In this document: positions 17,142-33,619 of the stretch, piece by piece | Position numbering within the stretch: the stretch's first letter is position 1 | How the letters are laid out: every line of letters begins with the position of its first letter | Assembly: GCA_900319225.1 (NCBI GenBank) | Contig: ONNV01000013.1 | Span: 1-64,000, forward strand | Length of the DNA: 64,000 bases | Source of the DNA: an uncultured Prevotellaceae bacterium | GTDB lineage: Bacteria; Bacteroidota; Bacteroidia; Bacteroidales; Bacteroidaceae | Direction: 5' to 3' | Translations under genes and position numbers: made by a program | Notes under the pieces: model-generated | Told to the model about the DNA's origin: nothing | Database searches by the model: none | The model's input: the letters and a program-made list of their open reading frames with translations, nothing else

Positions 17142-20087
17142 ATGAAAACTATCGGAACGATGAAATATATCAGAATCGCTGTTCTTGCCCTCATGACAGT
17201 AGCATTGAGCAGCAACTCTTTCGCACAGAATGCACGTAACCAGAGAAACGCCAATCAGAACAGCGGTTACACAGTAAGCGGACGCATCATTGACGCTGCC
17301 GACGGCACTCCTCTGGAGTTGGTAAACATCATCTTTGAGAACAACTCATTCTGGGCAGTCAGTGACCTTGAAGGAAAGTTCAGCCTCAAACTCCGCAACG
17401 GCGAGTACCACTATGAGGTATCATACATCGGTTATGAGACCGTAAAAGGCGTACTCAAGGTTGACGGCAAGGACATCAGCAACTTCAATGTTAAGCTTCA
17501 AGCCTCAAGCCTGGCACTTGAAGAGGTTGTAGTAACTGCCAAACAGCAGGCCATGGGTTCATCATCTGTGATTGACCAGGCTGCTTTACAGCATCTGCAG
17601 CCCAAGAGTGTAGAGGATATGCTTCAATTGTTACCCGGTAATGTTACTAAGAACCCGGATGTCAACTCTATAGGACAGACCTATATCCGAGAAGTATCCG
17701 GTAGCAGCAACAACGCAATGGGTGCTCTTGTTATGGTTGATGGAGCTCCTATTGCAAATGACGCTACCATGCAGCTGCTCTCTACCTCCAAGAGCGGTTC
17801 CAGTCTTAACTCATCAGCTAGCACAGGACAGGCATCGACCGGACGTGGCGTAGATTTGAGAATCATATCTACAGATAACATTGAGAATATGGAGGTTATC
17901 AGAGGTATACCGTCTGTAGAATACGGAAATTTAACATCCGGAGCCGTTCTTATCAAGACAAAGAGAGGTGCGACCCCTCTTGAAGCTAAAGCAAAGATTG
18001 ATCCTGAATCAAAAATGCTATATGCGGGCAAAGGCTTCACATTGGGAACAGGAGGTACCATTAACCTTGCCTTGGACTATACTGAATCATACAATGACGT
18101 CAGATTCCCGGCTAAGGGTTTTGAGCGCATCACCGGTGATGTAAGCTACGGAAGAACATTCTTTACTCAATATCCGTTAAGTTTCAACGTCAAGGTTTCT
18201 TATTACCAGAACGTCTTTGATATCAGGAAGGACAAACAGCAGCGCTCTTTTGAATTGACCAAAAGCGAGAACCGCGGTATACGTGTCAATCTGAATGGAG
18301 ATTGGAACATAAAGAGAGCACTCATCTCAAACTTGAGCTATAATATCTCATACAGCAACAGCTACCAGCGTGATTATCAGTTGCAACAGATTCTGCTTAC
18401 CACAGGTATTACTCCTGTTGCCGTATCAACCGTATCGGGTGAGTTCCGCTCATATATGCTTAACGGCACATATCAGTCAGAGCACACGGTGAAAGGTAAT
18501 CCTGTAGATTTGTTCGCTCAACTCAAGGGAACAAAAACCATTTTTATTTCAGAAGGTTTTACATCTTCTTTCAAAGAGGGTGTCGAGTTCAATTATGACG
18601 TCAACCATGGCGATGGCCTTGAGTTTGACCCCAAAAGGCCTCCTTTTGTAAGAAATGCCCAGACAGTACGTCCCCGTCCCTACTCCGATGTACCCGCTAT
18701 GCAGACCTTATCCGGATTCATTGAGAATAAGACGATAATGCCCATAGGTGGCACCAATCTGACAGCTCAGGTGGGTATAAGAGCAAATAGACTTTTTATT
18801 GACCGCAACTATCTGGATCGTAGCGACATGGTTACTGTTGAGCCCAGATTTAATGTTGAATGGTCTTTCCTCACTCCAAGAAACTCCGCATTTGATAATT
18901 TCAGTATAAGCGCCGGTTGGGGTCTTACTTCAAAGATGCCTCCGTTGGTTTACCTGTATCCGGATAAAGCATATTTTGATGACAAGTCCTTTAGTTACGT
19001 GGAGCCTGGCATGAGTATGGATAAAAGTATCGCCATTATGACAACTTCTGTCATAGAAGACACATCAAATCCAGACCTGAAACCCTCAACAGGCAAAAAA
19101 TTTGAACTGGGTCTCAACTTTGAATTCAAGAAGATGTCCGGTAATGTAACTTTCTTTATGGAGAAATATGAGAATGAGTTCTCATACCGTTCCGTGCCTT
19201 ACACTTTCACATACAGGACATATCTGCCTCCTGCCGGTGCTACCGATTACCAATATGAAAATGGCGTCTTGAGTTGCCTGATGGGAACTGACAGAATCAA
19301 CGTTGATTGCAGAAATGACTCAACATTCCAATCATACAATGTACCTATGAACGGTAATTCAACTCAAAAGATGGGTGTTGAGTACACACTTAACCTGGGT
19401 CAGATAAAGGCTCTGAGAACATCAGTTGTAGTTGACGGAGCCTGGTTATGGGTAAAACGACGCAATGAGCTGGGATACTGGTCTACTATATCCGTTGTTG
19501 ATCCGGTCGTTGACGGACGCTCAAATCCTAAGAAGATATATCCGTTCCAACCCTTCTACCCTGCTGGATCCGGATCTATCGAGTCTCGTCTTAACACCAA
19601 CTTGAGATTTATTACGCACATTCCCAAATTGTCTCTCATTTTCTCCACTACAGCCCAGATCATATGGAGTGAGACAGGGCAGACTGTATATAAGGACGGA
19701 GATGGCAATGACATATGGTATTTGGCTCAAAACCAGCAGTCAACCACAGAGGATCTGAGACCTAACGTGGATCCCGCCTATTTCCGTGATTTTGCCGGCA
19801 ATATATATGAATGGAATACGGCATACAGAAGTAAGGCCAACTACAGACGTGAGTATGAAATGGTTAATACATACACATATGACACTTATTTCAATAAGAC
19901 CACATATCCGTCATCCGTTATCATCAATTTCAGATTAACCAAGCAGTTTTCTGACATTCTTGAGGTTTCATTCATGGCAAACAACCTGTTCAATACCCGG
20001 AAACTGTACCGTGATCCCAATGATGGATCTTACACCAATTTGGCTATCCCGCAGTATTTTGGAGCAGAATTGAAAATCAAAATATAA
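17142..20087 (+). CDS. TonB-dependent outer-membrane receptor
   Basis: A 981-residue outer-membrane importer powered by TonB. It has a signal peptide ending SFAQ, a carboxypeptidase-D regulatory-like beta domain (about residues 40-125, VSGRIIDAADGTPLELVNIIF), a plug domain (about 130-270) and a C-terminal beta barrel ending in ELKIKI. It is not followed by a SusD gene, so it is not a standard glycan importer; the next genes encode a DUF4876-like lipoprotein and a DUF6850-like barrel, then proteases and a HmuY-like lipoprotein. Uptake of a metal complex, haem or a peptide is therefore more likely, by context only. GTG at 17139 is also in frame but ATG 17142 is preferred. Confidence 0.9.
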   Translation: MKTIGTMKYIRIAVLALMTVALSSNSFAQNARNQRNANQNSGYTVSGRIIDAADGTPLELVNIIFENNSFWAVSDLEGKFSLKLRNGEYHYEVSYIGYETVKGVLKVDGKDISNFNVKLQASSLALEEVVVTAKQQAMGSSSVIDQAALQHLQPKSVEDMLQLLPGNVTKNPDVNSIGQTYIREVSGSSNNAMGALVMVDGAPIANDATMQLLSTSKSGSSLNSSASTGQASTGRGVDLRIISTDNIENMEVIRGIPSVEYGNLTSGAVLIKTKRGATPLEAKAKIDPESKMLYAGKGFTLGTGGTINLALDYTESYNDVRFPAKGFERITGDVSYGRTFFTQYPLSFNVKVSYYQNVFDIRKDKQQRSFELTKSENRGIRVNLNGDWNIKRALISNLSYNISYSNSYQRDYQLQQILLTTGITPVAVSTVSGEFRSYMLNGTYQSEHTVKGNPVDLFAQLKGTKTIFISEGFTSSFKEGVEFNYDVNHGDGLEFDPKRPPFVRNAQTVRPRPYSDVPAMQTLSGFIENKTIMPIGGTNLTAQVGIRANRLFIDRNYLDRSDMVTVEPRFNVEWSFLTPRNSAFDNFSISAGWGLTSKMPPLVYLYPDKAYFDDKSFSYVEPGMSMDKSIAIMTTSVIEDTSNPDLKPSTGKKFELGLNFEFKKMSGNVTFFMEKYENEFSYRSVPYTFTYRTYLPPAGATDYQYENGVLSCLMGTDRINVDCRNDSTFQSYNVPMNGNSTQKMGVEYTLNLGQIKALRTSVVVDGAWLWVKRRNELGYWSTISVVDPVVDGRSNPKKIYPFQPFYPAGSGSIESRLNTNLRFITHIPKLSLIFSTTAQIIWSETGQTVYKDGDGNDIWYLAQNQQSTTEDLRPNVDPAYFRDFAGNIYEWNTAYRSKANYRREYEMVNTYTYDTYFNKTTYPSSVIINFRLTKQFSDILEVSFMANNLFNTRKLYRDPNDGSYTNLAIPQYFGAELKIKI

Positions 20088-20122
20088 TGTTTAACCTTTT
20101 TATTAATTAATTTTTCAAAGCA

Positions 20123-21319
20123 ATGAAAAAGTATTTATTTATGGCCCTGGCTGCTGCATTTACAGTATTCACGGCATGTGATGATGAAAAGGAGGCTCAG
20201 AAGTATCAGGTAACCGTTAAGGTTAGCTGTGAAGAGGCAGATCTTTCATCAATGAATTCTATTAAAGCTACCGCTCTGAGTGAGACAGGTAAAACAACTT
20301 CTGTTTCAGCTGACAATGGCTTGGCTGTCCTTAAACTGGTTGCCGGCTCATACACCATTTCAGTTGTAGGTTCTGATGACGTATTCAACTATGTAGGTTC
20401 TGTACAGTGCGTTGTTACCAATTCAAACATTGACAGCCTTTCAGTATCTCTTGTCAAGACCAAACCTTACGGTTCCATTGTTTTCAAGGAAGTTTATTCA
20501 ACCGGCGTAAGCGACTTCTATTGGACCGACGGATTCTATGAGTTGTTCAACAACAGCGATGAGGTACAGTATCTTGATGGTATCATTCTTGGTATTGTTC
20601 AGTGCGGATATGGTAGTGTAAGCAGTTGGGCTGATGAGGCAGGAAACCTGCCTTCTTACTATCCTATGGGTAGCCACACTGTATATTTCCCCGGTTCCGG
20701 CAATGAGTATCCTATCAATCCCGGACAGAGTGTCGTAATTGCAACCCGCGCAATCAACCATTCTGCACGTGAACTTGGTGAAACTGATGTAGAATCTCCC
20801 GTTGACATGAGTAATGCAGACTGGGAAATCTATATTCCGTCATCAACTCAGGATACCGATAATCCTGATGTACCCAACCTTGAGGTTGCTTACTCACAGT
20901 TCGGATTTGATTTCATGCCTGCTGTAGCAGGACAGGCTCTTATTATCGCCAGACTTCCCAAGGATTCCGTAATGGAAGATTTCATCGCAAACAATGCTTT
21001 GAAGCCCGAGGGACAGTACCGTGCAGCTCTTTGCATACCTAACGAGTATGTCATAGATGCCGTTGATATCATCTACTACAATGAGGATCAGATGATCAAT
21101 AAGACCATTCTTGAAACAGATGATGCAGGTTACACCTACTATAGTGGCTCTGATGACGAGTGGACCAGCCCCATGTACTGTGGCAAGAGCCTTCGCAGAA
21201 AGTGCTCAAGTGTTAAGAACGGTCGTTTCTACCTCCAGGATACAAACAATTCATCCAATGACTTTATCCTTGGTGGTCAGACTCCTGTAGCTCACAGATC
21301 ATTTACATCAGCTGACTGA
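20123..21319 (+). CDS. DUF4876-like surface lipoprotein
   Basis: A 398-residue lipoprotein: the signal ends FTAC (Cys19) and is followed at once by DDEKE, an acidic tag resembling Bacteroidota surface-export signals. An Ig-like beta segment covers about residues 25-115. The middle (GSIVFKEVYSTG...DGFYELFNNSDEVQYLDGIILG and INPGQSVVIATRAI) looks like a lamin-tail-type beta domain: a strand, an E-L-Y/F-N block and a later PGQ turn. I recall this architecture as DUF4876, typically beside a TonB receptor. It probably works as the ligand-capturing partner of the receptor 35 bases upstream. The ligand is unknown. Confidence 0.75.
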   Translation: MKKYLFMALAAAFTVFTACDDEKEAQKYQVTVKVSCEEADLSSMNSIKATALSETGKTTSVSADNGLAVLKLVAGSYTISVVGSDDVFNYVGSVQCVVTNSNIDSLSVSLVKTKPYGSIVFKEVYSTGVSDFYWTDGFYELFNNSDEVQYLDGIILGIVQCGYGSVSSWADEAGNLPSYYPMGSHTVYFPGSGNEYPINPGQSVVIATRAINHSARELGETDVESPVDMSNADWEIYIPSSTQDTDNPDVPNLEVAYSQFGFDFMPAVAGQALIIARLPKDSVMEDFIANNALKPEGQYRAALCIPNEYVIDAVDIIYYNEDQMINKTILETDDAGYTYYSGSDDEWTSPMYCGKSLRRKCSSVKNGRFYLQDTNNSSNDFILGGQTPVAHRSFTSAD

Positions 21320-21332
21320 TAAACTATTTATA

Positions 21333-21370
21333 CCGCAGAGTAGGGCCGTTTCCCTACCCTGCGGTTTTAA
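21333..21370 (+). terminator. Hairpin and U-run inside the locus (attenuator or terminator)
   Basis: CCGCAG-A-GTAGGG (21333-21345) pairs with CCCTAC-C-CTGCGG (21352-21364) around one mismatch, followed by TTTTAATTATTT. This is a convincing terminator 14 bases past the DUF4876-like gene. It splits the receptor and lipoprotein from the protease operon. No clear new promoter follows in the 22 remaining bases, so partial read-through is likely. Confidence 0.75.
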
Positions 21371-21392
21371 TTATTTAATTTGAAACTCAATT

Positions 21393-22991
21393 ATGAAAAA
21401 GCATTATTCCGGATTATCATTTTTAGTAGCATGTCTTACTATGTCTGCTTTTGCACAAACCGTTTCAGCAGAGACAGAACGGAAAGTTGACCCATGGTAT
21501 CAGGATGGGCTTTTCATATATGACATTACATCCAATTCCATAAACCCGGCAAATATCTGCAATCTCCCTTATTCCGGTCTTAATGACATATCTGTATCAT
21601 ATTCAGGAGATAAGGGCAGATACAGAGCGTTTGACGGTTCTGTAAAATCACGTCTGTTTGATGCCAATATATTTGGTATCAGAAAGTTTGACAATCTCTC
21701 ATTTAAGGGAGGCATTAATTATTCCAATAACTACAAAGAGGATATGAGGTGGAATGCCACCGCATTAACCTCAGAACGTAATCCGTTCCTCCTTGCAGAT
21801 ACACTTAGGTATGACTCTCTTACCAATGATTCAAGAACGGAATCATTCAGGATAGATGGAACGGTCTCATATCAATTCAGTGATATGATAACAGCTGGAC
21901 TGACATCAGTATACTCCGTTGCTCAGAAGACAGACCAGTCAGACCCCAGAATGAAAGCAATCGGCGCCAGGACCAGAATTATTCCCGGCATCAACTTTAC
22001 ATTTGGCAAGTTCACCCTTGGTCTTGCCGGCTTGTACGAGATTTACCATGAAGATGACAAGTCCTCTGTTGAGGATAATATGATAAGTGAACATAATAAC
22101 GTATACATTTTTAAAGGCCTTGGAGGTTATGAAGGTAAGGACGGTTTAGGATATAACCGTCGTTATGACGGACACAAATTTGGTGGATCCTTAAACTTCC
22201 ATACATCTGGTACTTTCAGGAACTTTACAGAGCTGTCTTTCATTTCAAATTCAGAGGACGCAATTGACGGCGGTACCTCTTACAGTTATAGAGGTGGTGA
22301 TTATTCACAAATGACGATGGCTCTATACAGCCGTTTCTCCTATAATGCCAACAACCGTATCCAGCATGACCTGATTATTACGGCCAGTATGGACAACAAT
22401 AAAGGAAAATGGTACAACCAGAAGCAGAAGAAAGACAGTTGGAACATGATTTATTATGAAGTAACGTCAACAGAAATAATTCATAAAGAGAGTGATATGG
22501 CAGCATCGCTGACATATTGCATCAATTTCATCAAATCTGACGTACCTCATATGACTGCATCTGTCACCGCTGGCTACAATAAAGCAGACATTAAACAGTT
22601 CCCTGACGAGAACTATGCCAAATATGCAAAAGTGAATGCAGGACTCTCATTAAGCAAGAAATGGATAGCCGGAAAGATGCGCTATTTGACTGATATTACA
22701 GCAAGCATGAACCACGCTGTTTCTCCGCTTGATATTTCTGTTATTACAGACACCCCTGCACTAAGAAGGTTTTATAACGGATATTATCTGCCCAAATTCA
22801 CATATCTTTCGGCCGATGATTATTGCGTTTCCCTAGCTCTTGGAGCCTCATATCCTTTGAGTCTGTTCTCAAAAGACGGATGGCTGAATCTGACTGTCAA
22901 TGCATCCATGAAAAAGTACTCTGGCGACAGTCCGCTGTTTAAGGACACTGACAAGAATGCATTGGGAATAAAACTCAACTACACATTTTAA
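21393..22991 (+). CDS. DUF6850-like outer-membrane beta-barrel protein
   Basis: A 532-residue secreted protein: the signal peptide ends AFAQ, and nearly the whole length is alternating amphipathic strands ending in KLNYTF, whose terminal aromatic residue is typical of outer-membrane barrels. Its position after a TonB receptor and a DUF4876-like lipoprotein is that of proteins I recall as DUF6850. Function is unknown; a channel, or an outer-membrane anchor for the lipoproteins encoded downstream, is possible. The first protease-like gene starts three bases after its stop codon, so it should be part of the same operon. Confidence 0.7.
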   Translation: MKKHYSGLSFLVACLTMSAFAQTVSAETERKVDPWYQDGLFIYDITSNSINPANICNLPYSGLNDISVSYSGDKGRYRAFDGSVKSRLFDANIFGIRKFDNLSFKGGINYSNNYKEDMRWNATALTSERNPFLLADTLRYDSLTNDSRTESFRIDGTVSYQFSDMITAGLTSVYSVAQKTDQSDPRMKAIGARTRIIPGINFTFGKFTLGLAGLYEIYHEDDKSSVEDNMISEHNNVYIFKGLGGYEGKDGLGYNRRYDGHKFGGSLNFHTSGTFRNFTELSFISNSEDAIDGGTSYSYRGGDYSQMTMALYSRFSYNANNRIQHDLIITASMDNNKGKWYNQKQKKDSWNMIYYEVTSTEIIHKESDMAASLTYCINFIKSDVPHMTASVTAGYNKADIKQFPDENYAKYAKVNAGLSLSKKWIAGKMRYLTDITASMNHAVSPLDISVITDTPALRRFYNGYYLPKFTYLSADDYCVSLALGASYPLSLFSKDGWLNLTVNASMKKYSGDSPLFKDTDKNALGIKLNYTF

Positions 22992-22994
22992 GTC

Positions 22995-25154
22995 GTGACA
23001 AGAAAAATCCTTTTATTACTTGTCGGCTTCATATTAACAATATCCTGCACCGACAAGAAGACTGGTTTTGCCATAGTGATTGATCCCCAAAGCTATAGTG
23101 AAGCTAAGGCTGAGATTGATGATTACCTGAAACTTGTCCAGAGTCGTGGTCTCCACCCCATTCTGGTCATTGACCGTTGGGGAGTACCCGACAGTATCAG
23201 GGCGGAGCTTATCAGACTCTATAATGATGAGGTATATCCTATTGAGGGATGTGTATTTATAGGTGATATACCTATTGCACGTACACGTGACGCGCAACAT
23301 TTCACCACAGCGTTCAAGATGGACCAGGACGGCCAGTTTGACCGTACGGAGTATACCGTTGCCTCAGACCGTTTCTATGACACCTTTGAGCTGCAATGGG
23401 ACTATCTGGACCGTGACTCAGTCCGCCCTGAGTATTTCTATTATCATCTGCGCTCGGATTGCCCCCAGAGACTCCGCCCCACCATCTACTCGGCACGCAT
23501 AATGCCCCGCACCAATGACCTGGGCAACAAATATGACAAACTGCGCCGTTACATGCAGCGTGTAAACAAGGCCGATGAGCAGAACAACCCGCTTGACCGT
23601 ATGTTCTATTTCAGCGGTTACGGATACGTGTCAGAATCCGTTGATGCACGTATTGATGAGAAAGCGGAGCATTATGACCATTTCCCATGGATGAAAGGAC
23701 AGCAGGCCACGATAACCTATCTTGATTACAAGCGTGATCCGTTCGTAAAGAAGCGTTTCATGACAGAGCTGCAGATGCCTGAGTATGACTGGGCAGTACC
23801 CCACCATCACGGCAGTCCGGATATTGAACATCTGAGTGATATGCCTGTAGGCACTGATTATTATGAAGCTATTGACTGGATTAAGGAGTATATACTTTCT
23901 CAGGTAGCCAAGGGTAAGGCCAAGGGACGCAGCATGGACCAGATAAAGAAATCCATCAACGCCGCATATGACTGCACGTTCCCCGATGAGTGGTTCAAGG
24001 GTGAGCCCTCATACAATTTTGAGAAGGAGCGTAACCTCTACTACTCAGACTTCAAGGATTTCCATCCTCAGGTACGTATGGTAACCCTTGACGGCTGTTA
24101 CAACGGTTCATTCCATCAGGATGAGAGCATACAGGAGGGTTATCTGTTCGGTGAGGGTAACGGGACACTGGTTGTCATGGGTAACACAGTGAATGTGCTG
24201 CAGAACAAGTGGGTATGCCACTTTATGGGTATTGTTGGCCTGGGTGCACGTGTAGGCAATATGGCCAAATACGGTGCCTATCTTGAGGCGCATCTGTTCG
24301 GTGACCCCACATTCAGTTTCACACCCGGCGCATTCTGCGGATTTGACATAAACAAAGCCTTGCTTTCTGATGACCCCAAGTTCTGGAAGGTGCAACTTAA
24401 CAGCGAGTTCCCTGCCATGCAGATCATGGCTATGGACAAGCTTGCCAATAGCGGTGGCAACTACTCGGACCTGATATTTGAAAAGTTCCGCACATCAGCA
24501 TCAGGAATAGTTCGCCTGGCAGCACTTGAGGAGCTCAAGAAATACCGCGATGACAACTACGTCAACGCATTGGTACTGGGTATGAATGACGCCCATGAGA
24601 TGGCTCAGCGTTTTGCAGTCATCCAGGCCGGAGACTGTGGTGACAGCCGTGTAGTAGAGCCTCTTGTTAAGCTGTATTGCGCAAACACCCTGCCCGAGCG
24701 TGTTGAGTATTCAATACAGGGCAGCATCCAGATCCTGGATTCCACTCTTGTAATGAAGGCCTTTGACGAGTATTTCCCCACCCTTACCTTCTACAATAAT
24801 GCCGACAGTGTATACAAAGCCAAGCGCAAGGCATTGCATCGCATGTGCACACGTCAGATCAGGAATGTGGAGAGTACGGTATTTGACGCAGATGAGGAAT
24901 TGTATGACAGGAAGATGGCTCTTCGCACCACCCGCAACTACAATTATCATATCCTTGTTCCCAGAGAGCTTGAATACCTGAGCAATCCTGATGACGTAAC
25001 CCTGCAGACCGTAATGTGGGAGGCATTAGGCTGGTATGTGACATCATATCAGGCCCCCAAGATAGCTGAGCTGGCACTTAAAGTGGCATCTGATGACCGT
25101 TTTGACCTAAAGGTACGTGATGAAGCATTGAAAACATATAACAGACTTAAATAA
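22995..25154 (+). CDS. Clan CD (gingipain/caspase-like) lipoprotein with HEAT-like tail, paralogue 1
   Basis: A 719-residue lipoprotein (lipobox LTISC, Cys18), first of four tandem paralogues. The N-terminal about 430 residues resemble the caspase-fold of C25 peptidases: a strand/helix start (GFAIVIDPQSYSEAKAEIDDYL), a VFIGDIP block where C25 enzymes have a VLLVGD-like strand, then His272-Gly273 (PHHHGS) and Cys368 in LDGCYNGSFH. Clan CD enzymes pair a His-Gly with an (Asp/Glu)-Ala-Cys; here Gly replaces Ala. About 95 residues separate the pair. The C-terminal about 270 residues are helical with HEAT-like repeats (GIVRLAALEELKKY, EMAQRFAVIQAG). The start is a GTG three bases after the upstream stop. 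Peptidase activity is inferred. Confidence 0.75.
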   Translation: MTRKILLLLVGFILTISCTDKKTGFAIVIDPQSYSEAKAEIDDYLKLVQSRGLHPILVIDRWGVPDSIRAELIRLYNDEVYPIEGCVFIGDIPIARTRDAQHFTTAFKMDQDGQFDRTEYTVASDRFYDTFELQWDYLDRDSVRPEYFYYHLRSDCPQRLRPTIYSARIMPRTNDLGNKYDKLRRYMQRVNKADEQNNPLDRMFYFSGYGYVSESVDARIDEKAEHYDHFPWMKGQQATITYLDYKRDPFVKKRFMTELQMPEYDWAVPHHHGSPDIEHLSDMPVGTDYYEAIDWIKEYILSQVAKGKAKGRSMDQIKKSINAAYDCTFPDEWFKGEPSYNFEKERNLYYSDFKDFHPQVRMVTLDGCYNGSFHQDESIQEGYLFGEGNGTLVVMGNTVNVLQNKWVCHFMGIVGLGARVGNMAKYGAYLEAHLFGDPTFSFTPGAFCGFDINKALLSDDPKFWKVQLNSEFPAMQIMAMDKLANSGGNYSDLIFEKFRTSASGIVRLAALEELKKYRDDNYVNALVLGMNDAHEMAQRFAVIQAGDCGDSRVVEPLVKLYCANTLPERVEYSIQGSIQILDSTLVMKAFDEYFPTLTFYNNADSVYKAKRKALHRMCTRQIRNVESTVFDADEELYDRKMALRTTRNYNYHILVPRELEYLSNPDDVTLQTVMWEALGWYVTSYQAPKIAELALKVASDDRFDLKVRDEALKTYNRLK

Positions 25155-27148
25155 TGAGAAAATCAGCATTTATACTTTCACTCGCAGCCCTGCTGTTATC
25201 AGCATGCGGTCCCACAAATAAAAAGACCGGTTTTGCTGTTGTCATTGACCCCCAGAGCTATCAGGAGGCCCAGACAGAGATAGACCAGTATCTTAAGGTG
25301 GTCAAGAAGCGTGGTCTATACCCCTTCCTGGTCATTGACCGCTGGGGTGTTCCCGACAGCATACGTGAGGAGCTGATAAGACTGCACAATGACAGCGAGC
25401 ATCCCATTGAGGGTTGTGTGCTTATAGGTGACATACCTGTTCCTATGGTACGTGACGCTCAGCATATGGCCAGCGCATTCAAGATGGATCAGGACCGGTT
25501 CCCCAGAATAGAGAGCCATATACCGTCTGACCGTTTCTATGACTGCTTTGACCTTAAGTTTGATTACATAGACCAGGACTCATCACGCTGGTTTTATTAC
25601 AGCCTGCGTGCCGACGGTGCCCAAAAACTGGCTCCTACCATCTACTCTGCACGTATTACTCCGCGTGACAACGAGCGTGGAGAGCGTTATGAGAAACTGC
25701 GCCGTTACATGCAGCGTGTAAATGAGGCCGATAAGAACAACCGTGAATTGCTGAACGTACTCATGTTTGGTGGTGACGGGAACCTGTCAGGTTCATTCGC
25801 AGCACGCACAGATGCCAAGATTGAGTTCTATGAGCAGTTCCCCTGGATGAAAAGCCAGCAGCTTTCTGTAGTATATCTGGATTACACACGTGACAAATAC
25901 ATAAAGGCACGTCTTACAGATGAACTGCAGCATCCCAAGACTGACTATGCTCTGCTCTCCCATCACGGAGACCCCACCATCCAGTATCTGAGCGGAACAA
26001 AAGATCCCCGTGACATACTTGTCACCAAGGAGTTTGCCAATTATCACCCGCAGACCAGACTGGTATCACTCGATGCCTGCTACAACGGATCGTTCCATCT
26101 GGATGACAATATCCAGGAGGCATATCTGTTTGGTGAGGGTAACGGAACCCTGCTTGTCCTGGCCAACAGTGTCAATGCAATACAGGATAAATGGGTAAAC
26201 CGCTACACCGGTTTGCTGGGTCTTGGCATGCGTGCCGGATTCCTGGCCAAGCTAGGTACTTTCATGGAGTTCCACCTGTTTGGTGACCCCACCTATGCAT
26301 TCGCAAAGTCTGCCGATCCCGGTTTTGACATAAACCAGGCCATCAACTACGCTCCCGCCAGATTCTGGTTCAAGCAGTTAAGTAACAACTATCCTGCAGT
26401 CCAGGGATTGGCCATTCACATGCTTGCTCTGGACGGAAAGAAATGGTCAGACTCCATATACAAGAAATTTGTATCATCCGAGAACCGTATCGTGCGTCTG
26501 TCATGCCTTATGGAGTTGGCACAGTTCAAGGATAAGAATTTGCTTAGATGCATAATGCTGGCACTCCATGACGAGCATGAGATGACTCAGCGCTTTGCAG
26601 TGCTGTATGCCGGAAAATATGGTGACCCACGATTGGTTGATGTCATATCCGGTCTGCGATGCGAGAATAATCTCAGTGAGAGAGTTGATTTTGACCTGAA
26701 CAATGTATTGCGCAGTTTTGACTCTACAGCCGTAATGAACTCCGCAAACCATTATCTTGACCTCAGAGCCCCGTTCCACAGTAACCCTGACAGTGTAAAT
26801 AAAGCCATCACTGATGTCATCAAGCTGTATGCCGGACAGCAGGCTTTTGATATAAGGAAGGCATTAAAGAGCACCAAAGCCAGCCAGAACAGCAAGATGA
26901 ATGCCATTCACAGCATGCGCAACAATCCTCCCCACTACTATACTGATGATATTCTGGATTATCTGGAATCATATGTTCCGGCCGAGGATTCAGTATTACA
27001 GCGTGCCACATGGGAGGCAATCGGCTGGTTTGACATGTCATACCGCGCTCCCGATATCGCCGAAGCAGCGCTAAAGGTATCACAGGATGAGAAATATCCC
27101 GTCACCGTACGTAAAGAGGCTTTAAAGACATATAACCGTACAAAATAA
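25154..27148 (+). CDS. Clan CD-like lipoprotein with HEAT-like tail, paralogue 2 (short)
   Basis: A 664-residue paralogue with lipobox LLSAC (Cys18). Candidate catalytic residues are His271-Gly272 (LSHHGD) and Cys309 in LDACYNGSFH, which keeps the canonical Asp-Ala-Cys. Only 37 residues lie between them, against about 95-106 in the other three, because the inserted helical segment is missing. If the insert is a regulatory or substrate-gating loop, this copy would have the most open site. The HEAT-like C-terminus is retained (NRIVRLSCLMELAQF, EMTQRFAVLYAG). The start codon shares one base with the previous stop (TAATG), so it should be coupled in translation. Confidence 0.75.
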   Translation: MRKSAFILSLAALLLSACGPTNKKTGFAVVIDPQSYQEAQTEIDQYLKVVKKRGLYPFLVIDRWGVPDSIREELIRLHNDSEHPIEGCVLIGDIPVPMVRDAQHMASAFKMDQDRFPRIESHIPSDRFYDCFDLKFDYIDQDSSRWFYYSLRADGAQKLAPTIYSARITPRDNERGERYEKLRRYMQRVNEADKNNRELLNVLMFGGDGNLSGSFAARTDAKIEFYEQFPWMKSQQLSVVYLDYTRDKYIKARLTDELQHPKTDYALLSHHGDPTIQYLSGTKDPRDILVTKEFANYHPQTRLVSLDACYNGSFHLDDNIQEAYLFGEGNGTLLVLANSVNAIQDKWVNRYTGLLGLGMRAGFLAKLGTFMEFHLFGDPTYAFAKSADPGFDINQAINYAPARFWFKQLSNNYPAVQGLAIHMLALDGKKWSDSIYKKFVSSENRIVRLSCLMELAQFKDKNLLRCIMLALHDEHEMTQRFAVLYAGKYGDPRLVDVISGLRCENNLSERVDFDLNNVLRSFDSTAVMNSANHYLDLRAPFHSNPDSVNKAITDVIKLYAGQQAFDIRKALKSTKASQNSKMNAIHSMRNNPPHYYTDDILDYLESYVPAEDSVLQRATWEAIGWFDMSYRAPDIAEAALKVSQDEKYPVTVRKEALKTYNRTK

Positions 27149-27152
27149 AAGA

Positions 27153-29339
27153 ATGAGAAAATACATATCAATTCTATTTGCAGTGGCTCTTTTGGTGTCT
27201 TGCACTAGCGTAAAAAGAGACGGTTTTGCCGTTGTCATTGACCCTGAGAGCTATAATCAGGCAAAGGCCGAGATTGACGGATATCTGAGCACAGTTCAGA
27301 ACCGTGGTCTGCACCCTATCCTGGTGATTGACCGCTGGGGTGTGCCCGACAGCATCCGTGCAGAACTTATCAGACTCTATAACGCACCTGTCAACCCCAT
27401 CGAGGGCTGCGTATTCATTGGTGATATCCCCGTTGCCAAGGTACGTGACGCACAGTTCCTTACCAGCGCATTCAAGATGGACCAGGGCGGCCGTAACGCA
27501 ATGGCAGACTATTGCGTATCTACAGACCGCTTCTATGACTCATTTGACCTGGAGTGGGATTTCATACAGCAGGACACGGCACGCACCGAGTATTTCTACT
27601 ACTCATTGCGTAATGACTGCCCGCAGAAACTGCGCCCCACCATCTATAGCGCACGCATATTCCCCCGCACCAATGCCCGCGGTGACAAATATGAGAAACT
27701 GCGCCGCTACATGCAGCGTGTAAATGAGGCCGATGCAAACAACAACCCCATTGACAACGTACTCTCATTTGGAGGTCATGGCAATGTATCGGACTCATGG
27801 GAGGCCCGTATGGATGAGAAAATTGAGATGTATGACCAGATGCCCTGGATGCGCCGTCAGCAGAAAGGCATCATGTACATTGATTTCCGTCATGATGATT
27901 TCATAAAGGAACGTCTTACCACCCAGTTGCAGATCCCGGAGTTGGATTACGCCATCCTGCACCATCACGGAAGTGAAGAGGAGCAGTTGCTGTCAGGTTA
28001 TCCCGTGACATCATCCCTGCCCGTTGATATGGATAACGCCCGCCGTTATGCACACTCACAGACACGCTCCTACCTTAAGCGCGGACGTACCCTGGCCGAG
28101 GCAAAGAATAGCATTGAAACATACTTACGCTCTCCCATCCCCGACGAATGGGTAAAAGAGGCCAATAAACCTGACGTAATTGCTGCCGATGAGGCCTACT
28201 CATACGCTCAGGACCTGCATGTAGCAGAGTTCAGCAACTACCATCCGCAGGTTCGTATGGTATCGCTTGACGCCTGCTACAACGGTTCATTCCATGTAGA
28301 CGAGAGTATCCAGGAGGCATATCTGTTCGGTGAGGGCAACGGTACACTGATTGCCGTAGCCAATACCGTAAACTCCATCCAGGACCGTTGGATAAACCGC
28401 TATCTGGGTATGCTGGGTATGGGTATGAGAGTGGGTTACGTAGCCGTATTCAACAACACTCTTGAGAACCATGTGTTTGGTGATCCCACATTCGCATTCA
28501 CCCCTGCCGCAAATCCCGGTTTTGATGTAAACGAGGCCGTAAAGGACCATTCGCCCAAATTCTGGAAGAAACAGCTTGACAACCCCTATCCTGCCGTTCA
28601 GGTACTTGCCTGCTATATGCTTGGCCAGAAATGTGACGGCGATTGGAACAGTCTGCTGCTTGACAAGTTCAAGACATCCCCTTACGGCATGGTACGTCTG
28701 GCAGCACTGCTTGAGCTTGGTGAAAACCGCAGTGATGAACTTGTCGAGTGCATTGAGCTTGGACTCAATGACGGCAATGAGATGACCCAGCGTTTTGCCG
28801 TACTGCTGGCCGGAGACTGCGGTGACAAATCACTCGCAGAGACACTGGTAAGGCTCTATTGCGAGAACACTCAGCCCGATAGAGTACGTTTTGACCTTAC
28901 CAGCACGACACTGCGCTCATTTGACTCAGCATCGGTTGTATCGGCATTTGAAAAAGTGTTCCCTGAGTATACCTGCTACAACAACCCTGACAGCGTAGGC
29001 AAGGTTATACTCCGTAATCTCATTAACGGAACCACATCAATGACAAGTGACTTTGATGAGGAGGTGCTGTCAAACAAATACACTGACAAGAACCGTATCT
29101 CAAACATACGCTCCATGCGCAACTACCCCGTACATGAGCTGGTTCCGGTAATGCTTGATTATCTGTCCGAGCCCAAGGAGCCTGCTATCCAGGAGGCAAT
29201 GTGGGAATCACTTGGTTGGTTTGAACTCTCATACCAGGCTCCGCTTATTGCAGCCAAGGCAAAGGAGATTATGGATGACGAGCGTTATGAGAAGGCCGTG
29301 CGCTATCAGGCACAAAGAGCATATAACAGACTGAAATAA
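27153..29339 (+). CDS. Clan CD-like lipoprotein with HEAT-like tail, paralogue 3
   Basis: A 728-residue paralogue, lipobox LLVSC (Cys17). The candidate dyad is His272-Gly273 (LHHHGS) and Cys375 in LDACYNGSFH. The roughly 100-residue segment between them carries Arg/Lys-rich helices (RRYAHSQTRSYLKRGRTLAEAK). The shared signature YEKLRRYMQRVNEAD before the His block and the GDPTFAFTPA strand after the Cys block are kept. The HEAT-like region follows (GMVRLAALLELGEN). It lies four bases after paralogue 2. Together with paralogue 2 this is the best match to clan CD consensus and the most likely active copy. Confidence 0.75.
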   Translation: MRKYISILFAVALLVSCTSVKRDGFAVVIDPESYNQAKAEIDGYLSTVQNRGLHPILVIDRWGVPDSIRAELIRLYNAPVNPIEGCVFIGDIPVAKVRDAQFLTSAFKMDQGGRNAMADYCVSTDRFYDSFDLEWDFIQQDTARTEYFYYSLRNDCPQKLRPTIYSARIFPRTNARGDKYEKLRRYMQRVNEADANNNPIDNVLSFGGHGNVSDSWEARMDEKIEMYDQMPWMRRQQKGIMYIDFRHDDFIKERLTTQLQIPELDYAILHHHGSEEEQLLSGYPVTSSLPVDMDNARRYAHSQTRSYLKRGRTLAEAKNSIETYLRSPIPDEWVKEANKPDVIAADEAYSYAQDLHVAEFSNYHPQVRMVSLDACYNGSFHVDESIQEAYLFGEGNGTLIAVANTVNSIQDRWINRYLGMLGMGMRVGYVAVFNNTLENHVFGDPTFAFTPAANPGFDVNEAVKDHSPKFWKKQLDNPYPAVQVLACYMLGQKCDGDWNSLLLDKFKTSPYGMVRLAALLELGENRSDELVECIELGLNDGNEMTQRFAVLLAGDCGDKSLAETLVRLYCENTQPDRVRFDLTSTTLRSFDSASVVSAFEKVFPEYTCYNNPDSVGKVILRNLINGTTSMTSDFDEEVLSNKYTDKNRISNIRSMRNYPVHELVPVMLDYLSEPKEPAIQEAMWESLGWFELSYQAPLIAAKAKEIMDDERYEKAVRYQAQRAYNRLK

Positions 29340-29346
29340 TAATAGT

Positions 29347-31563
29347 ATGAACAGAATCAAATCTTTATATCATAGCATTCTGGGGGCAGCATGTTTGCTG
29401 CTCCTGGTATCTTGCGGCCACAGCAAACCGGGTTTTGCCATAATCATTGACCCTCAGAGCTATACCGAGGCCCAGGCTGAGATAGACCGTTACCTGGAGG
29501 TGGTTGAAAGCCGTGGTCTCCACCCTTTCCTGATAATTGACCGTTGGGGCGTTCCTGACAGCATTCGCGCGGAGTTGATGCGTCTGCACGCTGACCGCAA
29601 CAATCCTATTGAAGGATGTGTGCTCATAGGCGATATCCCCGTGGCAATGGTTCGTGACGCACAGCATTTCACCACAGCTCTCAAGATGGACCAGTTCAAT
29701 CCGTCATTCAGCCGTAATGAGTACTGTGTACCGTCAGACCGTTTCTATGACAGTTTTGACCTTAAGTTTGACCTAATAGAGCAGGATTCGGCCCGCAGCG
29801 AGTATTTCTTCTACTCACTGAGAGGTGACTGCCCGCAGCGTCTGCGCCCCACCATATACAGCGCACGTATCATGCCGCGTGACAATGAGACCGGCACCAA
29901 ATATGACAAACTGCGCCGATACATGCAGCGCGTAAATGAGGCTGACAGCAACAACAACCCTCTGGACCGCATGTTCTACTTTAGCGGTGAAGGTTACATA
30001 TCCGAGTCTGTCGATGCCCGTATAGATGAAAAGATTGAGCTCTATGACCAGTTCCCATGGATGCGCACACAGCAGCAGTCCATTGAGTACATAGACCACA
30101 AGAGAGAGAAATTCGTAAAGAACCGCCTCATGCAGCAGATGCAGTACCGCGATGTGGACTTTGCCATACTCCACCATCATGGAGCATTTGATACTGAGTA
30201 TCTGAGCGTTTACCCAGAGGCTGAGACAATGATTGAGGATGTTGCCATGATGCGCCGTTTTATGCGTGAGCAGATGCGTGAAGGTGACCGTAAAGGTCTC
30301 AGCAAACAGGAGGTGATGCGCCGCGTGAACAAGTATTTTGGCTGCGATATACCCGAGTCCTGGTATAAAGGCGCTCTTGATCCGGACCAGATAGCACGTG
30401 ACAATCAGGATGACATAGATGAGGAGAACAACATCAACCTGCACTTTCAGGATTTCACCTTCTATCATCCTCAGGTACGCATGGTATCACTTGACGGTTG
30501 CTACAACGGATCGTTCCACCGTGATGAGAGCATTCAGGAGGGCTATCTGTTTGGTCAGGGCAACGGTACCATAGTAGTTATGGCCAATACCGTAAACGTG
30601 CTGCAGGACAAATGGGCAGACCATTTCATAGGCCTGATGGGAATAGGAATGCGTGCCGGCCGTATGGCTCAGTTCGGAGCATTCATGGAGCAGCACATAT
30701 TCGGTGACCCCACATTCAGTTTCACTCCTGCTGTTAAGACCGGTTTTGACGTGAATGACGCCATCAACAATGCCGGTGACGGATTCTGGAAGAAACAGCT
30801 TAAGAACGGCAGTCCCGCCATGCAGATACTGGCACTTGATATGCTTGCAAACGGCAGTACAAACTATTCAGACCTTATTGCCCGTAAGTTCAAGACCTCT
30901 AACTCCGGTATAGTACGTCTTGCCGCGCTCATGGAGCTGTCAGGCTATCGTGACGAGAACTTTGTGCAGTGCCTTGCCCTGGCTCTTGATGACAGCCACG
31001 AGATGACACAGCGTCTTGCAGTAAACATGGCAGGCCGCTCAGGTGACGAGCGCCTGATTCCCGGACTGGTACGCATAGCATCCAAAAACAACACCTCAGA
31101 GCGTATAGAGTTTGATGTGACCAATGCGTTCCACACGTTTGACTCCACACTTGTGCTGGAACAGTTTGACCGCTACTTCCCCACTGTGGACTGCTATCTG
31201 AATCATGACAGCATAGGCGGTCTGATACGCAGTGCGCTGCACAGTTTCACCACATCAATAACTGATGAGGTAAATACAAGACTGTTTGACACCACACTAA
31301 CCCAGACCCAGCGTAAGGCCGGAGCCCGTGCCCTGCGTAACAACCCTGTACACAGCATGATACCGCAGTTGCTTGAGTTGCTGGACAATCCCGCAGAGGA
31401 TGACCTTATACTCACCGTGCTGTGGGAGGCAATGGGTTGGTATGACCTTTCATACCGTGCCGATGAGATTGCAGCTGCCGCACTTAAGGCCAGCACTGAT
31501 GAGAGATTTTCTGAAAGAGTCAGGAATGAAGCACTTAAGACATACAACAGATTACAGAAATGA
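29347..31563 (+). CDS. Clan CD-like lipoprotein with HEAT-like tail, paralogue 4
   Basis: A 738-residue paralogue with lipobox LLVSC (Cys23) and the longest N-terminus. The candidate dyad is His278-Gly279 (LHHHGA) and Cys385 in LDGCYNGSFH, like paralogue 1 with Gly in place of Ala. The insert between them is acidic towards its end (DDIDEENN) with basic helices before it (MRREQMREGDRKGL-type). HEAT-like units follow (GIVRLAALMELSGY, EMTQRLAVNMAG). It is seven bases after paralogue 3 and overlaps the papain-like gene by ATGA. Paralogues 1 and 4 share the DGC form and 2 and 3 the DAC form, hinting at two functional pairs. Confidence 0.75.
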   Translation: MNRIKSLYHSILGAACLLLLVSCGHSKPGFAIIIDPQSYTEAQAEIDRYLEVVESRGLHPFLIIDRWGVPDSIRAELMRLHADRNNPIEGCVLIGDIPVAMVRDAQHFTTALKMDQFNPSFSRNEYCVPSDRFYDSFDLKFDLIEQDSARSEYFFYSLRGDCPQRLRPTIYSARIMPRDNETGTKYDKLRRYMQRVNEADSNNNPLDRMFYFSGEGYISESVDARIDEKIELYDQFPWMRTQQQSIEYIDHKREKFVKNRLMQQMQYRDVDFAILHHHGAFDTEYLSVYPEAETMIEDVAMMRRFMREQMREGDRKGLSKQEVMRRVNKYFGCDIPESWYKGALDPDQIARDNQDDIDEENNINLHFQDFTFYHPQVRMVSLDGCYNGSFHRDESIQEGYLFGQGNGTIVVMANTVNVLQDKWADHFIGLMGIGMRAGRMAQFGAFMEQHIFGDPTFSFTPAVKTGFDVNDAINNAGDGFWKKQLKNGSPAMQILALDMLANGSTNYSDLIARKFKTSNSGIVRLAALMELSGYRDENFVQCLALALDDSHEMTQRLAVNMAGRSGDERLIPGLVRIASKNNTSERIEFDVTNAFHTFDSTLVLEQFDRYFPTVDCYLNHDSIGGLIRSALHSFTTSITDEVNTRLFDTTLTQTQRKAGARALRNNPVHSMIPQLLELLDNPAEDDLILTVLWEAMGWYDLSYRADEIAAAALKASTDERFSERVRNEALKTYNRLQK

Positions 31564-33155
31564 TTTTTAAGCCGAAACACATAATACCTACACTAATATC
31601 ATTCTTTTTCTGCGCAGGGTTACATGCGCAGCAGGATCAATATGCCATAAGACCGGGTCTTGAATTGCCCGAACTGCAAATCAATACTCAAAGGGTACTA
31701 TCACGAGACTCTGAGCAACCTCAATTACCCACATATGTAGATAATTCTTTATCGGATTTCTTTCCGGCAGTAGTAAATCAGCATGGAGGATCGTGTGCCC
31801 AGGCATCAGGTATACATTATCTCTTTACATATGAGATGAACCGTGTACTTGAAAGAAAGGTAAGTGCCAGTCCAAAAGCTTATACGTTCAGTTATCGATA
31901 TACATGGCACTATCTGAATGAAGGAAAGGATCAGGGTTCCATATCAAGTGACGGTTTGGAAATAGTCCAAACAGCCGGATGTATGACCGTATCTGATTAC
32001 GGAAATGAGGATGAGAGCGTTTACCGTTGGGTAAATGGATACACAAAGTATTACAATGCCATGCATTACAAAGCCAAAAATATCAGTTCTGTCTCATTAA
32101 GGACACGTGAAGGAATAGAGAAACTGATGGCTTATATGGTAGACAAGAATGATGGCCATCCGGGAGGAGGAATAGCCGGATTCTCAGTATCCGGCGATTG
32201 GAGTATTTACAATTACTCCGGTCCATCACAGGCTGGTATCACTAATATAATGAGACCTAAAGGTTCAGGCGGCGCTCACGCGATGACTCTGATTGGATAT
32301 GATCTTTCTGTCGAATTTGACTGTGATGATGACGGTATTATTGATGATGACGAGAAAGGCGCATTCATATTCATAAACAGTTGGGGAACCTGGTGGGGAA
32401 ATGACGGTAAGGCATATATGCCGTTTTCAGCGTTTACCAGATCAATTGAAGATGGAGGTTTCTATCGCTTTGACGGTGAAGCCAAAGCACTGTGTACAGA
32501 TGCCGAATATCAAGAACCGACATTGGCCATGGAGGTTAATTTGACTTATAGCTCACGTAATGACCTTAATATCAGATTCGGAGTAGCTGACGGGGCTCAG
32601 TCAACCAAACCGGACAAGGGATGCTTTGCAGAATACAAACATGTCCTTAAAGCCCAGGGTGGAGATCTTAGGATGCAGGGAACTACTTTTGAAACAGGAA
32701 AAACCATAACTATGGGATTTGACCTTTCAGAACTAAAAGCTGCTGTAGATACTATGAAGGCTCCATGCTGGTATTTGATAGTATCAAAAGTAATCTCTGG
32801 TGATAATGGTAGCGGAAACGTAAATGAAATAAAACTTCATGATTACAGAAACGGGAAAGATTCTATAGTATCTGCTTCTTTCAAAGGATCGACTGCTGCA
32901 ATTTCTACAGGAACCCGTTATTTCAAGATAATGACAAAAGATTGGTTTAAGGATTCATCGGGCAAATGGTATAGACCAGTCAATACTTCCGCCTCCCGAA
33001 TTGTTGCCAATACAGATTACATGCAGCAATTTAACTGGAACAGAATCTTTGCAGTAAGAAAATCAAAGGGAGGTTTTGCCAAAATCAAGATCACTGGTTA
33101 TGATCCCAAGACTAAGAAACTGACATTTAAAGCTAACAACTATGAACTCAAATAA
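31560..33155 (+). CDS. Papain-family (C1) cysteine peptidase, secreted
   Basis: A 531-residue secreted protein (signal ending LHAQ). The papain fold spans about residues 60-310 with the full catalytic set: NQHGGSCAQASG with Cys79 and the oxyanion Gln, GGAHAMTLIGYD with His240, and FINSWGTWWG with Asn273. An acidic DCDDDGIIDDDE loop (about residues 251-262) sits between His and Asn and resembles a calcium-binding loop. The last about 200 residues are beta-rich and could be a binding domain. With no lipobox it should be periplasmic or released. It overlaps paralogue 4 (ATGA) and the next gene by 14 bases, placing it firmly in the protease operon. Confidence 0.88.
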   Translation: MIFKPKHIIPTLISFFFCAGLHAQQDQYAIRPGLELPELQINTQRVLSRDSEQPQLPTYVDNSLSDFFPAVVNQHGGSCAQASGIHYLFTYEMNRVLERKVSASPKAYTFSYRYTWHYLNEGKDQGSISSDGLEIVQTAGCMTVSDYGNEDESVYRWVNGYTKYYNAMHYKAKNISSVSLRTREGIEKLMAYMVDKNDGHPGGGIAGFSVSGDWSIYNYSGPSQAGITNIMRPKGSGGAHAMTLIGYDLSVEFDCDDDGIIDDDEKGAFIFINSWGTWWGNDGKAYMPFSAFTRSIEDGGFYRFDGEAKALCTDAEYQEPTLAMEVNLTYSSRNDLNIRFGVADGAQSTKPDKGCFAEYKHVLKAQGGDLRMQGTTFETGKTITMGFDLSELKAAVDTMKAPCWYLIVSKVISGDNGSGNVNEIKLHDYRNGKDSIVSASFKGSTAAISTGTRYFKIMTKDWFKDSSGKWYRPVNTSASRIVANTDYMQQFNWNRIFAVRKSKGGFAKIKITGYDPKTKKLTFKANNYELK

Positions 33156-33555
33156 AATATACTCACTGATTCTTGTATTGCTCTTATTTGCTGTAAGTTC
33201 ATGCAAGGATAATGAAGATAAGGAGAAGGTTCCTGTGCTCATAAGCAATGATATTGAAATAACCTTAAAGCCGGGAGAATGGGTATATTACAGATTCTCT
33301 GACAGTACTGTAGTAGGAACCGGTATTATTGGAGATAAGGATGATGATGCCATGTGGTATAAACGCACAGACTGGGATATCGCTTTCAGTGAGGGTGGAA
33401 TCCGAACCAATGGTGGAACTGCAGGACGTGGTATAGGAGGTATTTCAATTATTGATGAAGAGACTTTCAATCAGGATTCGTATACCGATGCATCATTGCT
33501 TTACTACTATCAGGATGTATCGAACGTACCAATAACTGTACCTGTTGACAGATAA
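33142..33555 (+). CDS. Short HmuY-like haem-binding lipoprotein
   Basis: A 136-residue lipoprotein (VSSC, Cys21) followed by an acidic stretch KDNEDKEK suggesting surface export. WVYYRFSDSTVV, then YKRTDWDIAFSEGGIRTNGGTAGRGIGG, matches the core of HmuY proteins, which bind haem at the surface and pass it to a TonB receptor. It is shorter than the usual roughly 200 residues: the C-terminal strands are missing, and no His lies in the remaining core, so classical bis-His haem ligation is not supported. It may be truncated or bind another ligand. It ends the operon that begins at 21393 (or 22995). Confidence 0.65.
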   Translation: MNSNKIYSLILVLLLFAVSSCKDNEDKEKVPVLISNDIEITLKPGEWVYYRFSDSTVVGTGIIGDKDDDAMWYKRTDWDIAFSEGGIRTNGGTAGRGIGGISIIDEETFNQDSYTDASLLYYYQDVSNVPITVPVDR

Positions 33556-33592
33556 GTAGTCAATTATTTAAAGCATTCTGAAAATAAATGTC

Positions 33593-33600
33593 TAATTTTG
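33593..33600 (+). promoter_or_regulatory. -7 box of the cysE promoter
   Basis: TAATTTTG matches the consensus exactly, 20 bases before the cysE ATG at 33620, and marks the end of the protease operon. Confidence 0.5.
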
Positions 33601-33619
33601 CAGCCTGTTACAGCAGGCA

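Follow-up and report, generated by a model that had tools for sequence, protein, structure and literature searches.

A putative iron-linked TonB-dependent import cassette with tandem gingipain-fold cysteine peptidases in Bacteroidales

The four tandem paralogues at the center of this locus (CD1-CD4) almost certainly belong to the gingipain-fold (C25/clan CD) peptidase family, judging from their sequences and a structure model, and thereby gain a likely enzyme identity beyond the HEAT-repeat label, which is all that Pfam and NCBIfam assign to the four copies in the window (the whole stretch of 64,000 nucleotides analyzed here). Our best reading of the surrounding cassette is an iron-linked, protease-associated import system, a putative Fus analogue with C25-fold peptidases; the family is well supported, and we infer the cargo and compartment. 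The cassette comprises nine closely packed + strand genes at 17142-33555, listed here with one gene that lies upstream of them:

15675..16967, + strand: SDH_alpha (serine dehydratase alpha-like) gene (Pfam PF03313, E 7.1e-67)
17142..20087, + strand: TonB-dependent receptor (Pfam PF13715 (CarboxypepD_reg), and PF07715 and PF00593 (plug, barrel))
20123..21319, + strand: DUF4876 lipoprotein (Pfam PF16215, E 2.2e-40), its N-terminus acidic and export-signal-like (C-DDEKE) by acidic count
21393..22991, + strand: DUF6850 protein (Pfam PF21012, E 6.6e-66), a probable outer-membrane protein with a signal peptide seen by eye
22995..25154, + strand: CD1, predicted gingipain-fold lipoprotein peptidase with HEAT tail, 719 aa; His272, Cys368
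25154..27148, + strand: CD2, CD family, 664 aa, without the insert between His and Cys; catalytic domain modelled
27153..29339, + strand: CD3, CD family, 728 aa
29347..31563, + strand: CD4, CD family, 738 aa
31560..33155, + strand: papain-like (C1) peptidase, 531 aa, with Cys79, His240, Asn273 and, by eye, a type I signal peptide
33142..33555, + strand: short HmuY-like lipoprotein, 137 aa, N-terminal half of the HmuY family only (Pfam PF14064)

An initial annotation had described four paralogues of 664-738 residues with a C1 peptidase and a HmuY-like protein, and all of these ORFs were confirmed on the + strand; it began the set at 21393, which is the DUF6850 gene, while two genes farther upstream, for the TonB receptor (17142) and DUF4876 (20123), come first in the set. 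The four paralogues carry the lipobox, GDIP strand, His-His-Gly block and LD(A/G)CYNGSFH block as claimed, His272 and Cys368 are correctly numbered for CD1, and the HEAT-like tails correspond to Pfam HEAT_2 matches (E 7.1e-5 to 2.9e-10, that of CD1 under the Pfam cutoff). Identity to CD1 is 51% for CD2, 53% for CD3 and 56% for CD4. Junctions are tight, with overlaps of 1 base (CD1/CD2), 4 bases (CD4/C1) and 14 bases (C1/HmuY-like) and gaps of 4 (CD2/CD3) and 7 bases (CD3/CD4). Riboswitch control was rejected, since Rfam at its gathering threshold returned only a tRNA in the window, and alignment of upstream regions revealed no shared motif.

The clan CD (C25) identity proposed in that annotation was borne out by the predicted fold and by conservation of the dyad. 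A Foldseek search of the PDB with the CD2 catalytic-domain model (pLDDT 87.0, pTM 0.90; an earlier model from an alignment of only four sequences reached pLDDT 47.8) placed RgpB at ranks 1-3, each with probability 1.00 (E 9.7e-11 to 5.4e-9, TM 0.60-0.61, identity 14-15%), and the best 50 rows included no Kgp, caspase or other clan CD chain besides RgpB. The dyad His and Cys of the model lie directly behind predicted strands 246-250 and 284-288. His-Gly and Asp-x-Cys are kept in 51/51 aligned CD proteins (all >600 aa; one of the 51 was dropped from alignments A2 and A3), and likewise in all 89 proteins of an alignment that leaves out L007, L011 and ORFs <550 aa. Pfam Peptidase_C25 matched 20 of 50 CD members at E <=1 (best 2.9e-8), with those from L012 and L015 under the curated cutoff and the window's four proteins giving no match at full length. 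Profile searches of the PDB returned HEAT-type chains and three chance-level chains (alignment A1) or one chance-level match (alignment A3).

The CD proteins nevertheless have the gingipain fold without being gingipains proper. They share with RgpB (C25) a caspase-like fold (in the CD2 model) and a His-Gly and (Ala/Gly)-Cys dyad. Gingipains sensu stricto carry an N-terminal propeptide and a T9SS C-terminal domain, whereas CD proteins have a plain signal peptide or are lipid-anchored; the fold's first strand in CD2 starts ~8 residues past the lipobox Cys, leaving no room for a propeptide, and the window's copies gave no Pfam match to the T9SS tail (Por_Secre_tail) and have a HEAT tail instead. 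A phage-defence caspase-HEAT protein was rejected: among the four proteins on which PADLOC was run (CD1, CD2, CD4 and C1), the sole match was a weak HEAT one, to CD2 (E 0.0018), and the lipoprotein signals on the window's four CD proteins also oppose this reading.

For the cassette as a whole we tentatively favor, at slightly less than even confidence, TonB-dependent import followed by periplasmic processing by the predicted gingipain-fold cysteine peptidases, with a link to iron somewhat more probable than not. The DUF4876 protein, DUF6850 protein and TonB receptor would form an outer-membrane capture and uptake module that delivers its cargo, a peptide or a protein and in the most probable case one holding iron or haem, to the periplasm, where lipid-anchored, periplasm-facing CD1-CD4 would cut it with diverged specificities. 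The HEAT tails may hold substrate or one another, and the C1 peptidase and short HmuY-like lipoprotein would be accessory. A bolder form, which we regard as rather unlikely, has whole iron- or haem-proteins entering through the TonB receptor for periplasmic digestion by a gingipain-fold set with separate specificities, as a Bacteroidales counterpart of Fus whose protease array stays fixed while the receptor side diverges fast to track cargo or escape phage or bacteriocins.

The cassette and its TonB receptor very probably constitute one functional unit. In Bacteroidales the order TonB-DUF4876-DUF6850-CD, with CD present in 1-5 copies, was visible in 14 of 20 loci (where L007 seemingly duplicates L008, being from the same isolate with the same match figures, and a single isolate supplied both contigs L003 and L013) and in 14 of 17 stretches; all four genes were also present in 9 of 10 additional stretches of our choice from 27 genomes. 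Genomes common to both collections are L002/G491, L004/G665, L005/G413, L009/G617, L011/G654 and L019/G400. This recurrence, whose absence the initial annotation had said would count against it, indicates that the arrangement is not due to chance and upholds the proposed coupling to the receptor at 17142. CD genes (match E <=1e-10) occurred in 16 of 393 genomes, all of which also hold DUF4876, itself held by 71 (hypergeometric 2.8e-13, kinship uncorrected); a class-wide search found CD in 2 of 295 genomes, both found before. At the E 1e-10 threshold, CD was not matched in the remaining 55 of the 71 DUF4876 genomes (each genome had at most four candidates scored), so CD is not a requirement of the DUF4876 module as such. 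No peptidase family was found downstream of CD-less DUF4876 genes among 10 proteins taken from 5 of 20 CD-less loci, a result that gives the broader protease-import idea no support, and one CD-less locus, L126, has an ABC ATPase and DUF4857 instead.

Among close relatives, conservation is higher in the CD proteins than on the receptor side. Identity across the six pairs of the window, L001, L002 and L005 was 74.5-94.8% for CD, 34.8-69.5% for DUF6850 and 51.4-59.4% for C1, and CD led by less when L008, which is more distant, was one of the pair (CD 60-73%, TonB 54-60%, C1 51-54%). This contrast, and the position of CD next to the receptor module in the 17 stretches except L092 and L101 (contig ends) and L099 (an unlinked copy), could alternatively reflect periplasmic self-processing, in which CD peptidases would act on outer-membrane components of the cassette itself (or on blocked receptors, or bound bacteriocins) to mature, trim or recycle them. 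Gingipains do mature other proteins. We nonetheless consider self-processing improbable, since CD1-CD4 are four supported orthologous clades and other lineages have separate multi-copy sets, a fixed divergence that suggests several substrates, and since so many DUF4876 genomes have no CD match.

The same conservation bears on where the CD proteins sit. Following part of PMC5080379, we defined the export signal as acidic residues behind the lipobox Cys and counted them in proteins with a lipobox by script (38 of 50 CD, 12 of 15 DUF4876). The mean at positions +2 to +6 was 0.39 for CD versus 3.08 for DUF4876, with no acidic residue in 24 of the 38 CD lipoproteins and one in 13. The mostly absent signal, combined with stronger conservation than the receptor side among close relatives, suggests that CD proteins are probably periplasmic. 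Of the "surface or periplasmic" placement first proposed, the periplasmic half is thus the more probable one for CD. Surface digestion, in which the CD lipoproteins and C1 peptidase would cut host or feed proteins outside the cell and pass fragments or haem to the receptor, appears quite improbable given these counts, the missing T9SS tail in the window's copies, and the signal peptides, by eye plain and lacking a lipobox, of 11 CD proteins spread over seven loci (L012, L014-L018, L020). It is consistent with the gingipain fold, the acidic N-termini of the HmuY-like and DUF4876 lipoproteins, a SprA_N match in the genome, from which a T9SS may exist, and the K-E-E motif of one CD copy (L006, CGKEE), which fits the minimal Capnocytophaga export motif as defined in the same part of PMC5080379.

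The case for an iron link draws on published work with related operons of other species. In the portion of PMC10434189 used here, the P. gingivalis DUF4876 operon PG1019-22 is upregulated 20.8-214.5 fold under iron depletion, and the B. thetaiotaomicron BT1933-39 set 3.5-7.4 fold. Like our cassette, these sets and BT3625-33 contain a receptor and DUF4876, and BT1933-39 also lists a "HEAT repeat domain-containing protein", comparable with CD by description only; no peptidase is named for them in that portion, whereas the window has four CD proteins, a C1 peptidase and a short HmuY-like protein. The CD family is tied to an uptake module reported to be iron-responsive, and an iron or haem role for the cassette seems somewhat favored. 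The haem link of the initial annotation survives in this indirect form, through published iron/hemin responses of related DUF4876 genes, and not via HmuY.

PqqU of E. coli was formerly called YddB. PqqU imports PQQ (PMC12124388, in part), so a protease beside a TonB receptor need not mean protein import. The least probable alternative, in which the cassette would import a small molecule (a siderophore-peptide, haem or another cofactor) and its peptidases would only free a peptide-bound ligand, is compatible with this precedent, with the CD-less DUF4876 genomes, and with the ABC ATPase and DUF4857 at L126, partners also listed for the iron-induced BT3625-33 operon (PMC10434189, in part), but four CD proteins plus C1 would be a great deal of proteolytic machinery to spend on a single bond.

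Import with periplasmic proteolysis finds a close parallel in Fus (FusA/FusC), which likewise combines a TonB-dependent transporter and a dedicated protease in one cluster in an iron context (PMC6793856, PMC6071955, both in part). The Fus protease is an M16 metalloprotease (PMC6793856, in part), whereas the cassette has C25-fold and C1 cysteine peptidases and no Pfam M16 match among its nine genes. Protease-associated import was surveyed in Proteobacteria, while our cassette is from Bacteroidales, and "gingipain", "C25" and "cysteine protease" are absent from the available text of that survey (PMC6793856, in part). Among the open-access papers listed in the literature searches, no title or abstract opening described the cassette. 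If import and periplasmic proteolysis are both true, nutritional protein import would reach past Fus-type M16 systems.

The papain-like peptidase was upheld by Cys79, His240 and Asn273, which we take to be catalytic from the papain pattern and which are invariant in 15/15 full C1 proteins (the 212-aa fragment from L010 left out); its Pfam PF00112 match (E 0.0018, 18.9 bits) is under the cutoff of 20.7, and its three PDB matches have E 0.092 or worse, one being cathepsin L at 0.12. The HmuY-like protein shares an N-terminal half motif with P. gingivalis HmuY, matching positions 4-77 of the 157 in Pfam PF14064 above cutoff (37.9 bits, cutoff 27). Its weak alignment with 3h8t (E 0.12) ends at chain position 76, which would correspond to roughly residue 101 given a chain start at residue 26. 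The match thus stops short of where HmuY has its haem ligands, His134 and His166, a region that the short protein lacks; a haemophore role was rejected, and the haem-carrying HmuY of the initial annotation was not supported. The copies are short in 14/14 cases (119-143 aa; that of L018 is cut by a contig end).

The corresponding site was empty in 10/10 genus-mates examined, making the cassette a natural test case of one genus with and without it at the same site. The SDH_alpha gene shares this genus-level insertion and lies outside the proposed machine.

The CD proteins (the family of the four window paralogues CD1–CD4) are, on predicted structure and sequence conservation, a C25-fold family, as indicated by gingipain R as top fold match, an invariant His/Cys pair and Peptidase_C25 matches in some relatives; the initial annotation was thus right to call them gingipain-like. 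CD2–CD4 are 51–56% identical to CD1. A scan of genome contigs gave relatives at 20 loci (L001–L020). Together with the window, these loci supplied 51 proteins longer than 600 residues, in all of which His271, His272, Gly273, Asp366 and Cys368 (CD1 numbering) are invariant. Once further genomes are included, 89/89 proteins keep His272 and Cys368, and Glu replaces His271 in 10 of these 89. An AlphaFold2 model of CD2, built on an alignment (A3) of 50 catalytic domains after one duplicate of the 51 was dropped, had a pLDDT of 87.0 and a pTM of 0.90. With this model, Foldseek placed gingipain R (RgpB) at ranks 1–3 (probability 1.00); the remaining 47 of the best 50 rows were binding-protein-like chains, LacI-type regulators and receptor domains (probability ≤0.84, TM ~0.2), and neither Kgp nor a caspase was among these 50. 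His252 and Cys290 of the CD2 model are predicted to lie directly behind strands 246–250 and 284–288, respectively; His and Cys right behind strands is the arrangement expected for a C25 fold. Pfam Peptidase_C25 matches 20/50 CD relatives (E up to 1; best E 2.9e-8) and 0/4 of the full-length window proteins, which Pfam and NCBIfam mark solely by HEAT-type repeats.

ORF calling and a Pfam scan of the window confirmed the proposed four-paralogue gene set within nine plus-strand genes, neighbours of which overlap by up to 14 bases or stand up to 73 bases apart:

15675-16967, upstream of the cassette: serine dehydratase alpha-like (SDH_alpha) gene
17142-33555, + strand: cassette, in the order TonB receptor, DUF4876 lipoprotein, DUF6850 protein, CD1, CD2, CD3, CD4, papain-like peptidase (C1), short HmuY-like lipoprotein
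64 bases past the cassette end: cysE-like (serine acetyltransferase-like) gene

Elsewhere in the window, a large hybrid two-component-type protein is encoded at 46085-50065 (minus strand), and a GH10 gene at 6731 with a GH115 gene at 54183 suggests xylan use.

The expectation that this combination is kept in other genomes held. The order TonB-DUF4876-DUF6850-CD was seen in 14/20 loci (taking in L012 by its DUF6850 Pfam match; L007 and L008 look like duplicates) and in 14/17 stretches of a second set from 15 other genomes; in a third set of 10 stretches picked from the 27 CD-bearing family genomes, TonB, DUF6850 and CD occur in 10/10 and DUF4876 in 9/10. Part of the order stands at a contig edge in L004, L009 and L018, and the contigs of L010, L011 and L013 begin within the CD array. 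Among the second-set exceptions, L092 and L101 reach contig ends, with no receptor within the 9.6 kb preceding CD in L101, while L099 is the second CD copy of its genome and the receptor is absent from that stretch. In L093, ~3.3 kb between DUF6850 and CD (6367-9698) hold nothing matching cassette proteins. CD copies per locus range from one (L012, L015) to five (L006) across L001–L020, and C1 and short HmuY co-occur in 13/20 loci, 1/17 stretches and 5/10 stretches of the three sets. The CD family was found in 27/301 genomes of the taxonomic family and, at E up to 1e-10 with at most four candidates scored in each genome, in 16/393 of the order; all 16 are among the 71/393 with DUF4876, the two genes being on separate contigs in one genome (G317). 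We found no description of this combination in the titles and abstract openings listed by our literature searches.

Operons of the DUF4876/TonB type are reported to be induced by iron depletion (PMC10434189): expression rises 20.8-214.5 fold for PG1019-22, 3.5-7.4 fold for BT1933-39, whose genes include one for a HEAT-repeat protein, and 38.1-128.1 fold for BT3625-33, which carries an ABC transporter and DUF4857. A DUF4876 gene is also tabulated among the hemin-dependent expression changes of P. gingivalis (PMC10470040). On gene content alone, the HEAT protein of B. thetaiotaomicron may be a CD homologue. For comparison, 20 DUF4876 loci outside CD genomes were taken, and none of ten downstream proteins scanned, from five loci, was a peptidase. 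At one of the five (L126:6256-9075), the DUF4876 module is followed by an ABC ATPase, one further protein and DUF4857, resembling the iron-induced BT3625-33 operon in joining DUF4876 to an ABC component and DUF4857 (PMC10434189); partners at the other four are a glycyl-radical enzyme, a TonB/SusD pair, an efflux system and one weakly matched protein. Given these varied neighbours, the receptor module seems to pair with different partners, a protease not being a general one.

Acidic residues at positions +2 to +6 average 0.39 in CD lipoproteins (38/50 with a lipobox by script), 3.08 in DUF4876 (12/15) and 1.93 in HmuY-like proteins (14/14); by eye, the script missed one CD protein (L002) and two DUF4876 proteins (L016, L017) and took the plain signal peptide of one protein (L018) for a lipobox, in an N-terminal listing with some HmuY cysteines mis-picked. 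The minimal export signal of Capnocytophaga, K-(D/E)2 or Q-A-(D/E)2 (PMC5080379), which we infer to apply in the window's genus, fits one CD copy (L006, CGKEE). At seven loci, among them those of B. fluxus (L012) and Prevotella sp. DNF00663 (L015), eleven CD proteins have by eye an ordinary signal peptide without a lipobox. The Pfam scan found no T9SS tail in any of the nine cassette proteins; elsewhere in the genome there are SprA_N matches in one frame and two T9SS tail matches. Between L001 and L002, identity is 94.1% for CD1, 35.5% for DUF6850 and 38.3% for HmuY, a gap that shrinks against the more distant L008 (CD 60-73%, TonB 54-60%). The few acidic residues, lack of a T9SS tail and CD conservation in close relatives make a periplasmic location probable.

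Of the Pfam profile, the short HmuY-like protein matches the first half and no more; its alignment with 3h8t is weak (E 0.12) and stops at chain position 76, and it has no counterpart of the region with His134 and His166. Moreover, 14/14 copies are short, that of L018 being cut by the contig end. Since this region is missing, it is not a canonical haemophore, and the haemophore reading in the initial annotation finds no support.

In pairing a transporter with its own, probably periplasmic, proteases and in its probable link to iron, the cassette resembles the ferredoxin uptake system (PMC6793856), but its cysteine peptidases have another fold. By this analogy, it may follow a Fus-like functional pattern of transporter plus periplasmic cysteine peptidases, the favoured though tentative reading; a bolder form of it, import of whole proteins, is less likely. 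Alternatively, the receptor may take up a small molecule: PqqU, an E. coli TonB receptor with a protease neighbour, imports PQQ, so a protease next to a receptor is no proof of protein import (PMC12124388). The CD peptidases could also serve in self-processing. Surface digestion is a further, less likely alternative; the surface placement initially suggested finds no support, the export signal being mostly missing and the T9SS tail absent.

Between nth and cysE, the window carries an insertion of ~18 kb (15629-33619) comprising the SDH_alpha gene and the cassette. Since nth and cysE are side by side in 10/10 chosen genus-mates (eight without a CD match in the family search, G975 and G986 being outside it), the cassette seems to have been gained or lost as one block of ~18 kb; no integrase was found among the genes scanned in the window. 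In the genus, 8/37 genomes have SDH_alpha, one of these by a 35% match. The gene often adjoins the cassette, but it lies on a different contig from the CD genes in G654 and G665, so this link is incomplete. In a tree of 89 CD proteins (quick method, SH-aLRT support alone, midpoint root), window CD1, CD2, CD3 and CD4 each fall in their own clade (support 100, 100, 100 and 98), the four nesting in a single lineage-specific expansion (36 rows, support 100). Other lineages have separate multi-copy sets, such as one common to L134, L091, L095 and L098, which together with the supported clades indicates that duplication happened more than once and that the resulting copies stayed distinct. The first CD copy of L017 (8401-10568) consists of two overlapping open frames, either a broken gene or an assembly error.
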